A stretch of DNA of 64,000 nucleotides. Origin: Desulfarculaceae bacterium (GTDB lineage Bacteria > Desulfobacterota > Desulfarculia > Desulfarculales > Desulfarculaceae). The stretch lies in NCBI GenBank assembly GCA_020444545.1, contig JAHLKT010000008.1:62001-126000 (forward strand). The letters run 5' to 3'. A program made the translations under genes and the position numbers. Below are positions 36,594-38,963 of this stretch, one piece after another (position 1 is the stretch's first letter; each line of letters opens with the position of its first letter). The notes under the pieces were generated by a model. That model was given only the letters and a program-made list of their open reading frames with translations. It was not told the DNA's origin and did no database searches.

Positions 36594-37103
36594 TTATTGA
36601 AGTGCCGCCGCCGCCGCCATGGCCCCCCGCAGCTCCTTGACCCGCGCCAGGCCCCGCTCCACCGCCCTGCGCTCCTCCGGGCTCCAGGCCCGTAGGCGGG
36701 CCTTTTGCTCGGGGCAGAGATACCAGGTGCAGACCCAGGGGCGGCTGAGGCGGGGCAGGCGGCAGCCCTTGGGGCCCAGGTGGGCGCAGGGGCCGCCGGG
36801 CTCGGCCCTGAGCTGGGCCACGGGCAGGGCCTGGCCGCTCAGGTGCATGAAAAGCAGGTCCGGGAAATCGGCCCACACCCGGGCCCGCACACAGCAGGGC
36901 TCCAGGCAGCGGGGGCAGGTTGCTCCGCAGAGCCGCTCCATGGCCGGCTCCAGGGAGTCCAGGGCCCGGGCCAGCTCTTCGGCCAGGGCGCGGGCCGGGC
37001 CCATGCCCTGCCCGGCGCACAGGCGCAGGAGGGCGGCGTTGGCCTCGGCCCAAAGCTCCGGCGCGGCCCAGGGCGGACCCGCGTATGGCGGTTGGTTATT
37101 CAT
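36594..37103 (-). CDS. Cysteine-cluster protein (YkgJ-like)
   Basis: A 169-residue cytosolic protein with clustered cysteines: LCGATCPRCLEPCCVRA near 60-72, GPCAHLGPKGCRLPRLSRPW near 105-125 and VCTWYLCPEQ near 127. The spacing resembles the YkgJ/UPF0153 metal-binding proteins, as at 13134, but similarity outside the cysteines is low. The ATG at 37103 is supported by loss of charge pattern upstream; the ribosome site is weak. It stands alone between the two-component operon and DUF1289. Confidence 0.65.
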   Translation of the reverse strand: MNNQPPYAGPPWAAPELWAEANAALLRLCAGQGMGPARALAEELARALDSLEPAMERLCGATCPRCLEPCCVRARVWADFPDLLFMHLSGQALPVAQLRAEPGGPCAHLGPKGCRLPRLSRPWVCTWYLCPEQKARLRAWSPEERRAVERGLARVKELRGAMAAAAALQ

Positions 37104-37217
37104 GCGCGGCACTCGGCCCGCATTATAGCAGGGCCGCTTGACGCGCCGCGCCGGCGTGCTAGGCTGCCCGCCAGACAAGGCAACTCTTCTTCGGGCCATT
37201 GGGCAAAGGAAGCGGGC

Positions 37218-37457
37218 ATGAAAAAGAAGGGCTCAGGCAGCGCGGACTCGCCGGGGAGCAAGCCGACCCTGGCGGAATGCGCCGCGGATTCGCCCTGCAC
37301 CGGGTATTGCGTGCTGGACGGGCAAGATGTGTGCGAAGGTTGCGGCCGCACCATCGAGGAGATCGTGACTTGGAGTTCCTTGGACGCGGCCAGCCGCCGC
37401 GAGGTGTTAGAGCGCCTGGCGCGGGAAAAGGAAACGGGCTCTCGGTCTAGTGAATGA
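37218..37457 (+). CDS. DUF1289 family small cysteine protein
   Basis: A 79-residue protein with the DUF1289 core SPCTGYCVLDGQDVCEGCGR at about 25-44 followed by TIEEIVTWSSLDAASRREVL. The four cysteines likely bind zinc or Fe-S. A Lys/Ser-rich tail precedes the domain. Its end overlaps by 11 bp the convergent gene at 37447. Confidence 0.85.
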   Translation: MKKKGSGSADSPGSKPTLAECAADSPCTGYCVLDGQDVCEGCGRTIEEIVTWSSLDAASRREVLERLAREKETGSRSSE

Positions 37458-37779
37458 CCAGGGGCTTGTCCGGCGCGCCGGGGGGAGGCGCGATGAGCTT
37501 CTCGCCGGGGTTGGCCGCCTCCCAATGGGCAGCCAGGCCCAGGGCCCGCTCGCGGTTGTCCCCGCCCAGCTTGGAGCCCTCGAAGGCCAGCCAGCTGATG
37601 GTGGCCCGGGTGGGCAGCTCGGATTTCTCCACCACCTCCAGGACCTCCCCGGGCGGGAACTCCAGGAGCATCTCCATGGCGGCCATGCAGGTGGCGGCCA
37701 TCACCTCCCAGTCGCCCTGACGGGCTTCCAGGGCCTTGACGGCATGAAACAGGTTTTCCCAAGCGGTGGTGATTTCCAC
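37447..37779 (-). CDS. Unknown soluble helical protein, copy 2 of a duplicated cassette
   Basis: A 110-residue cytosolic protein, predicted helical, clearly paralogous to the gene at 38084: TAWENLFHAVKALEARQGDW versus RAWENLYHAAKALEQGRGDW, and AAMEMLLEFPPGEV, LPTRATISWLAFEGSKLGG in both with few changes. No known family is recognised. It follows a 48-residue membrane protein, as does its paralogue, and both pairs lie downstream of a cobalamin riboswitch. Whether the downstream pair shares that transcript is inferred from the lack of an evident terminator between them. Confidence 0.75.
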   Translation of the reverse strand: MEITTAWENLFHAVKALEARQGDWEVMAATCMAAMEMLLEFPPGEVLEVVEKSELPTRATISWLAFEGSKLGGDNRERALGLAAHWEAANPGEKLIAPPPGAPDKPLVIH

Positions 37780-37801
37780 GGTCGGCTTTCCGGGTGGGCG
37801 C

Positions 37802-37948
37802 TTAGCGCTGGGCGGCGGCCTGGGCCTGGGTGGCGCTCACGATCTCCGAGAGCGGCTGACGCGCTTGCCAGACCAGAGGCAGGCTGAACAGGACCATGGC
37901 CGCCAGGCTAAGGACCAATATGGTGTTGATGGAGCGGGCGTTGATCAC
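37802..37948 (-). CDS. 48-residue single-pass membrane protein, copy 2
   Basis: Starts at GTG 37948 behind GGGAGAAG. Residues ~8-28 are one transmembrane helix (ILVLSLAAMVLFSLPLVW) preceded by ARSIN and followed by a polar Gln/Ala-rich tail. It aligns end to end with the 48-residue protein at 38440 (R-x-I, L...M.L.SL.L.W). It is followed by its soluble partner after 22 bp. No known family; too short for most gene callers. Confidence 0.65.
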   Translation of the reverse strand: MINARSINTILVLSLAAMVLFSLPLVWQARQPLSEIVSATQAQAAAQR

Positions 37949-38083
37949 GATGTCTTCTCCCGGCGCGGCCCTCCCCTCCGGGGCGGTGTCACGCGCAGCT
38001 GTGCCTTTTTTTACAAAGTTACCCCCCCACCGAAAGCTCGTCAAGGAGAGGAGGAGGCGGGCCTCCGGCGGGGGGGAATTGAA

Positions 38084-38443
38084 TTAAGCCTGCGGCCGGG
38101 CCTCCTGGTCCGGGGCTGGCGGGGCGATGACCCTCTGCCCCAGGTTGAGCGCCTCCCAGTGCAGGGCCAGGGTGGCGGCGCTCTCGCGGTAGGGCCCGCC
38201 CAGCCGGGCGCCCTCGAAGGCCAGCCAGCTCACCACCGCCCGGGTGGGCAGATCCGATTGCTCCACCAGGGCCACCACCTGCCCCGGCGGGAACTCCAAA
38301 AGCATCTCCATGGCCGCCCGGCAGGCGATGGTCGCCTCCCGCCAGTCGCCCCGGCCCTGCTCCAGAGCCTTGGCCGCATGGTAGAGGTTTTCCCAGGCCC
38401 GCGTGGCCTCCCAGCGGTTTTCCCGCCCCTGCGCCTGGTTCAT
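38084..38443 (-). CDS. Unknown soluble helical protein, copy 1 of a duplicated cassette
   Basis: A 119-residue protein (MNQAQGRENRWEATRAWENL then YHAAKALEQGRGDW) sharing more than half its residues with the gene at 37447, including AAMEMLLEFPPGQV and LPTRAVVSWLAFEGARLGG. Its ATG overlaps the stop of the membrane peptide gene (ATGA), so the two are translationally coupled. It is the second gene under the cobalamin riboswitch. Nothing in the sequence shows an enzyme motif; a small helical adaptor or B12-linked regulator is conceivable. Confidence 0.78.
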   Translation of the reverse strand: MNQAQGRENRWEATRAWENLYHAAKALEQGRGDWREATIACRAAMEMLLEFPPGQVVALVEQSDLPTRAVVSWLAFEGARLGGPYRESAATLALHWEALNLGQRVIAPPAPDQEARPQA

Positions 38444-38586
38444 GGCCGCACCAGCCCCTGGGCCAGGTCCCCCATTGGCCAGGGGGTCGCCCCGGCCGAC
38501 ATTTCCCAGAGCAGGCCCAGGCTGGCCAGGAGCATGACCAGCAGGCAGGACCACAAAACTCCGTCAATCCACCTTCCGTCCAACAA
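38440..38586 (-). CDS. 48-residue single-pass membrane protein, first gene behind the riboswitch
   Basis: Starts at TTG 38586, 5 nt after GGAGGG. One transmembrane helix (VLWSCLLVMLLASLGLLW) follows DGRWIDG, then a short Pro/Trp-containing tail ending GLVRP. It is the same length as its paralogue at 37802. The size recalls CbtB-like cobalamin transport subunits, but the His-rich CbtB tail is absent. The alternative TTG at 38583 would remove one residue. Confidence 0.65.
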   Translation of the reverse strand: MLDGRWIDGVLWSCLLVMLLASLGLLWEMSAGATPWPMGDLAQGLVRP

Positions 38587-38591
38587 AACGA

Positions 38592-38615
38592 CCCTCCGCT
38601 TTATTTGCCGGAGGG
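38592..38615 (-). promoter_or_regulatory. Hairpin that can hide the first gene's ribosome site
   Basis: On the minus strand CCCTCCG pairs with CGGAGGG across a 10-nt AT-rich loop. The second arm is the Shine-Dalgarno of the gene starting at 38586. It lies directly after the terminator, so translation could be controlled too. Confidence 0.5.
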
Positions 38616-38621
38616 CCGCGA

Positions 38622-38660
38622 ATAAAAAAGCCCCCCGGACCGTTAAAGGTTCGGGGGGCT
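38622..38660 (-). terminator. Intrinsic terminator in the riboswitch expression platform
   Basis: Minus strand: AGCCCCCCGAACC pairs with GGTCCGGGGGGCT, followed by TTTTTTATT. It lies about 100 nt past the cobalamin aptamer and 36 bp before the first gene. Confidence 0.88.
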
Positions 38661-38756
38661 GCACCCAGCTTGCTTGGCCGCCCAGAAACGGAGCCCGCGC
38701 GGGGCCCCGCCAAGGCGGGCGCCGCGGCCGGTCCGGGCCGGCGCATCGGGTTCCTG

Positions 38757-38905
38757 GCAGGTTCGGCAGGTCTTCTGGCTTCCGGTTCTTCCTAGTCCCC
38801 GCGCCTTCCCGCCGCGCTGTGCGCGGCAGTGGCATCAAGGCGGGTTTCGTCCCCGGTTACAGCGGCGGGACCGCGACGGATTCGCACCGTCTTCCCTATT
38901 AAATC
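38757..38905 (-). ncRNA. Cobalamin riboswitch aptamer
   Basis: Read on the minus strand it has the conserved parts in order: GGGAA near 38896, GGTGCGAATCC, CGCTGTAACCG near 38858, GATGCCACTG near 38830, GGGAAGGCG, and the B12 box AGCCAGAAGACCTGCC at 38766-38781. These form the adenosyl/methylcobalamin aptamer core. Bound cobalamin normally represses downstream genes, here through the following terminator. Confidence 0.93.
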
Positions 38906-38934
38906 AAATGATGCCGATCCTGGTATGTGGGGAC

Positions 38935-38963
38935 ATTGTAGAACGGGATGGACAGGGGGTCAA
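38935..38963 (-). promoter_or_regulatory. Sigma-70 promoter of the riboswitch transcript
   Basis: Minus strand TTGACC (38958-38963), a 17-bp spacer and TACAAT (38935-38940). Transcription would begin near 38928, just before the aptamer. Confidence 0.72.

Follow-up and report, generated by a model that had tools for sequence, protein, structure and literature searches.

A duplicated pair of orphan genes behind a cobalamin riboswitch in a Desulfarculaceae bacterium, and its possible part in corrinoid or cobalt acquisition

Behind a complete cobalamin riboswitch, a Desulfarculaceae bacterium (GenBank assembly GCA_020444545.1) carries a cassette of two gene pairs, each consisting of a small one-helix membrane protein and a larger helical protein. 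The cassette lies in a 64,000-nucleotide stretch of contig JAHLKT010000008.1, which is called here the window. From its sequence features it is very probably under B12 control, and the comparative evidence suggests, with a probability of about 0.5, that it serves the acquisition of corrinoid or cobalt as an accessory module repressed by B12, which would be made when B12 is scarce. Two orphan families recur behind cobalamin riboswitches, and one of the two does so within operons for chelatases and transporters; this recurrence leads to a specific, testable prediction on components still missing from what is known of how anaerobes acquire B12. In addition, the riboswitch is present at a locus where close relatives do without one.

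In the window, the minus strand carries the cassette with its promoter, aptamer and terminator, read downward from position 38963. The features are the following:

38935 to 38963, minus strand: sigma-70-type promoter, TTGACC-17 nt-TACAAT, 10/12 matches to the consensus
38748 to 38933, minus strand: cobalamin riboswitch aptamer RF00174, cmscan 119.9 bits, E 1.7e-29
38624 to 38660, minus strand: intrinsic terminator (expression platform), fold of -26.1 kcal/mol, kept in genome G049
38588 to 38619, minus strand: hairpin pairing the ribosome-binding site GGAGGG of gene A1, 11-bp stem, -21.5 kcal/mol
38440 to 38586, minus strand: gene A1, 48-residue single-helix membrane protein, TTG start
38084 to 38443, minus strand: gene A2, 119-residue helical protein, ATGA overlap with gene A1
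38022 to 38076, minus strand: GC-rich hairpin between the two gene pairs, -35.9 kcal/mol
37802 to 37948, minus strand: gene B1, 48-residue single-helix membrane protein, GTG start
37447 to 37779, minus strand: gene B2, 110-residue five-helix protein, GTG start

The three regulatory elements claimed by the original prediction, i.e., a sigma-70 promoter, a complete cobalamin aptamer and an intrinsic terminator, were all recovered. The promoter is the one promoter-like site in the 2 kb scanned, against 0.1 in shuffled sequences, and with no second such site a single transcript is the simplest reading. The aptamer spans positions 1-189 of the Infernal model and is therefore full-length, it scores far above the RF00174 gathering cut-off of 31.5 bits, and it is 82% identical to the aptamer that precedes the orthologous cassette in G049. 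Between the aptamer and the first gene there is an expression platform, the terminator, with the sequence AGCCCCCCG...CGGGGGGCT followed by TTTTTT; it forms a 9-bp GC stem with inner pairs and a T6 run, and it is conserved in G049. A generic terminator scan was not above chance (1 found versus 1.2 in shuffles), and the fold of the entire leader was no more stable than those of shuffled sequences (z -0.63) because of the high GC content of the leader. What carries the case is therefore the covariance model together with conservation. Directly 3′ of the terminator, the hairpin at the ribosome-binding site offers a possible second layer of control; its CCCTCC/GGAGGG arms are found in G049 too, where another fold is the most stable one. 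The arms of the hairpin between the gene pairs, CCCCCCGCCGG and CGG(T/C)GGGGGGG, are also found in G049, and no T-run follows this hairpin.

The coding part of the cassette agrees well with what had been proposed, namely a 48-residue membrane protein and a helical protein of about 119 residues overlapping by ATGA, followed by a second pair of 48 and 110 residues. The same proposal saw clear paralogy in both members. For the larger proteins this holds without reservation, since A2 and B2 are 63% identical (BLASTP E 4e-47). For A1 and B1 the paralogy is real, but it does not emerge from the window alone, in which the two proteins are 27% identical and give no pairwise BLASTP alignment. One small protein of G051, a genome of the same genus, matches both A1 (E 5e-4) and B1 (E 0.003), and the five aligned small proteins have in common the motif M-[IL]-[DN]-x-R-[WS]-I-[DN], after which comes a helix with L-x-W at its end. 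This intermediate and the common motif indicate that the duplication of the whole pair is real. Compared with G049, copy B (37948-37447) shows dN/dS ratios of 0.40 for gene B1 and 0.12 for gene B2, by which it is judged to be the conserved copy, under purifying selection. The membrane protein of copy A gives a ratio of 0.95, nearly neutral, and the first 110-residue copy of G049 is put out of frame by a deletion of 38 nt, which in a draft genome such as this one may be a fault of assembly; copy A looks partly redundant. The cassette is adjoined by a 201-residue open reading frame (window 36594-37199, minus strand) with a cysteine-rich motif, CPRCLEPCC, and no Pfam match; similar proteins also accompany the single-copy 110-residue family genes of same-genus genomes.

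None of the four proteins resembles a B12 gene, as had been noted from the letters of the window: the 110-residue family has no convincing match in Pfam or NCBIfam, and the small proteins have none in Pfam. All four were also without a match in PADLOC and PHROGs, and a plasmid search was equally empty. A profile search of the 110-residue family against the solved structures of the PDB gave nothing below E 0.1. AlphaFold2 models of 21 family members show five helices (pLDDT 93.1), and Foldseek returned 0 matches to the 110-residue protein in the PDB at E <= 0.001. The DxHxxG corrinoid-binding motif is absent from all 21 members, and the family has no conserved histidine or cysteine; its conserved residues are three tryptophans, several glutamates and one arginine. 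The highest VIA-align score (Z 6.5, rmsd 3.9 over 97 residues) pointed to the alpha-helical fold of ARPC5, an Arp2/3 subunit, but the identity is 11% and the Foldseek E-value 0.8 or worse. A Z of 6.5 falls within the chance range for helical bundles, and this likeness probably has no functional meaning.

A scan of genome contigs with the single protein P0002 gave no relatives, whereas profile searches of whole genomes succeeded. Within the taxonomic family, a cobalamin riboswitch stands upstream of the gene at nine of 19 loci (the window, L036, L042, L044, L047, L048, L049, L050, and L051). Given the 117 cobalamin riboswitches of 20 genomes, chance alone would place about 0.04 loci on the same strand and no more than 3 kb downstream of one. 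Related sequences are not independent of each other, but when the riboswitch is placed as a label on the tree, five changes are needed, and since at least four of them are forced by well-supported branches, the association is not one inherited accident.

The operon company of the family points in the same direction. B12 genes share an operon with it at L047, L048, L049, L051, L052, L053, and L054, the window itself not being among these loci. The layouts observed in the relatives are:

G043: behind the riboswitch a TonB-dependent receptor gene and then the family gene; BtuC/BtuD-type genes face the two
G054: behind the riboswitch CbiK, the family gene, a FecCD permease, an ATPase and a binding protein, and last a gene that reads as CbiA
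G057 and a second locus of G054: behind the riboswitch a CbiK-Gcw_chp fusion, then the family gene
G053 and G058: the family gene between a gene for a Gcw_chp-type protein and BtuCDF-type genes
G041 (another taxonomic family): the family gene after CobQ and CobA
G042 and G060: nothing but the family gene behind the riboswitch
G051 (L042): riboswitch, small membrane protein, family gene, NapH-like/HGD-D operon

Among these partners, CbiK, the FecCD permease, the ABC ATPase, the periplasmic binding protein, the TonB-dependent receptor, CobQ and CobA were confirmed with Pfam, while CbiA and some of the transporter genes were assigned by eye or by BLAST to the confirmed ones. Several CbiK-BtuCDF operons exist without the 110-residue gene, so that its role in them would be an accessory rather than a core one. 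As a separate observation, the fusions of the cobaltochelatase CbiK with a C-terminal Gcw_chp domain (PF09694) are located at L048:8076-9728 (minus strand) and L051:8008-9756 (minus strand), each behind a cobalamin riboswitch.

The original prediction had offered a B12 uptake, trafficking or salvage module as a reasonable assignment. With its recurrent riboswitches and B12 operon partners the family fits such a role, although many relatives have no B12 link. If the riboswitch behaves as is known for its class, plentiful B12 would occupy the aptamer, the terminator would form and transcription would stop, while at low B12 the polymerase would read through and all four genes would be made. The genomic company suggests that the one-helix protein may sit in the inner membrane as an anchor, and that the helical protein may bind to it or to a nearby transporter or chelatase. 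The pair could then help the BtuB/TonB, BtuCDF and CbiK machinery in taking up corrinoid or cobalt, in loading the metal or in handing these substrates over. In this more specific form, somewhat short of an even chance, the cassette would encode an undescribed B12-repressed two-component import accessory in which a one-helix anchor and a five-helix adaptor act on BtuCDF, TonB or CbiK machinery, the adaptor having been placed under cobalamin riboswitches several times.

Alternatively, the pair might be a response to B12 scarcity rather than a part of uptake, tuning some process that depends on B12 enzymes, in the manner of a switch to B12-independent enzymes. Cobalamin riboswitches also govern B12-independent isozymes, for example nrdDG in relatives, according to the portion of the regulon reconstruction that deals with them (PMC545781). 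Moreover, the G051 gene heads a NapH-like/HGD-D operon whose counterparts in the genome of the window are riboswitch-led and lack the gene, and at L044 and L050 nothing but the gene follows the riboswitch. However, in several genomes the gene is embedded among uptake and chelatase genes, and neither Pfam nor the structure comparison revealed similarity to any enzyme. Such a scarcity response is rather unlikely, if still worth considering beside an accessory of acquisition.

The reading as an acquisition accessory has also to be weighed against the ten family loci of the taxonomic family without a riboswitch, i.e., L037-L040, L041, L043, L045, L046, and two B12-operon loci for which there is none on the contig. 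The loci L037-L040 belong to four same-genus genomes that carry a single copy of the gene and no riboswitch or remnant of one, even with permissive filters; most species of the genus in fact have no riboswitch at the 110-residue gene, and G051 carries, at L041, a pair without one in addition to its riboswitch-led locus. The genes at L043, L045, and L046 adjoin a trmJ-like gene. Overall, members turn up in most genera of the taxonomic family; there is one further occurrence elsewhere in the class, and another class of the phylum has scattered ones. The five relatives outside the class show neither a riboswitch nor a B12 context. The match at L055, which reads as TssG-like by eye, and the other class f3 matches were discarded as chance. 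The homologues thus proved to be riboswitch- or cobalamin-linked in part, the exceptions being the same-genus, trmJ-adjacent and outside-class relatives. From the riboswitch-free loci of the genus it appears that the pair of the window's genome (G000) and of G049 gained B12 control within the genus, or that the others lost it.

This distribution might indicate a general five-helix housekeeping family with a function unrelated to B12, the riboswitch being an incidental, recent arrival at a long-standing locus of this lineage. The same-genus single copy, found in a comparable neighbourhood without a riboswitch, the unrelated neighbours in distant relatives and the decaying copy A of G049 are all in agreement with it. 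Nevertheless, the association with riboswitches recurs with different operon layouts and far beyond chance, and the small membrane protein alone shows the same association, which makes a housekeeping function distinctly unlikely.

The evidence on the small protein comes from its own profile. The 48-residue proteins belong to no Pfam family, and most members of the 110-residue family have no membrane partner. In 63 genomes, the best new match of the small-protein profile was a 69-residue protein of G044 (E 6e-4; L106:4584-4793, minus strand), encoded about 0.2 kb behind a cobalamin riboswitch. A similar protein of 74 residues is encoded directly behind a cobalamin riboswitch in G060 (L153:681-905, plus strand), and in G051 the small membrane protein stands between the riboswitch and the 110-residue family gene. 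The stand-alone proteins of G044 and G060 are 42% identical, have tails rich in cysteine, histidine and proline, and belong to no Pfam family. A profile rebuilt with these three proteins recovered them at E 4e-19, 2e-16, and 5e-12, partly by construction. On such short membrane helices, homology judged from sequence is less certain than for the 110-residue protein. Beyond the taxonomic family, the only two matches of the profile lie inside open frames of 602 and 765 residues and were rejected as chance.

In size, in its one helix and in belonging to a cobalamin regulon, the 48-residue protein resembles CbtB, a small protein that takes part in cobalt uptake, and the cassette might accordingly be taken for a small cobalt transporter of the CbtAB kind, all the more so with the cysteine and histidine tails of the riboswitch-linked proteins of G044 and G060. 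Yet the small proteins had no match to the Pfam CbtB profile at E-values up to 5 (HMMER filters can drop very weak matches), those of the window have no such tail, and the cassette contains no CbtA-like multi-helix partner, so that a CbtAB-type transporter is highly improbable. A toxin-antitoxin or phage-derived module, with a small hydrophobic toxin and an overlapping soluble partner, would suit the gene sizes, the ATGA overlap, the duplication and the HicA/HicB-like genes (read by eye) that adjoin the pair at L041 in G051, but it is scarcely credible given that most family members lack the membrane partner, that PADLOC (not a toxin-antitoxin library), PHROGs and the plasmid search gave no match, and that riboswitch control would be odd for such a module.

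An accessory of corrinoid or cobalt acquisition can be compared with several described systems. The categories given in the pertinent section of a survey of riboswitch regulons are B12 synthesis, transport of B12 or its precursors, cobalt transport, and B12-independent isozymes (PMC3766115); in the delta-proteobacterial reconstruction, the corresponding section lists cbiK-cbiL, btuCDF, nrdDG, and cbtX as genes under cobalamin riboswitches (PMC545781). Neither protein family of the cassette is described in these sections of the two sources. One parallel is that of the Desulfovibrio cbiK-btuCDF regulons, as presented in that section of PMC545781, which combine a riboswitch with cbiK and btuCDF; in G054 the 110-residue gene is inserted between CbiK and BtuC. 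The differences are that neither the 110-residue family nor the small membrane protein is named in that section, and that the riboswitch of the window controls the orphan cassette only. BtuG and BtuH of Bacteroides are likewise B12 uptake accessories encoded with transport genes (in the relevant passages of PMC6143338 and PMC8941943), but they are described there as surface-exposed or B12-binding, whereas the cassette encodes a predicted inner-membrane-type helix and a soluble helical protein.

The cassette is one of six cobalamin riboswitch sites in its genome, and most of the 80 further sites in the taxonomic family precede genes of B12 transport or synthesis. At L089:4523-6562 (plus strand), a riboswitch of the window's genome precedes a fusion of a periplasmic binding protein with CbiZ (adenosylcobinamide amidohydrolase), downstream of which there are a second binding protein and BtuCD-type genes. 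Another stands before a ThiC-like gene followed by CobT, and one more is found at L093. The riboswitch-headed operon at L091:4271-7680 (plus strand) encodes a 296-residue protein, a NapH-like iron-sulfur membrane protein and an HGD-D protein; the 110-residue family gene that heads the operon of this kind in G051 is absent from it. Finally, cobalamin riboswitches of 116 and 69 bits stand in tandem at L090:11015-11538 (minus strand) before a TonB-dependent receptor gene, a doubling that is found in several relatives too.
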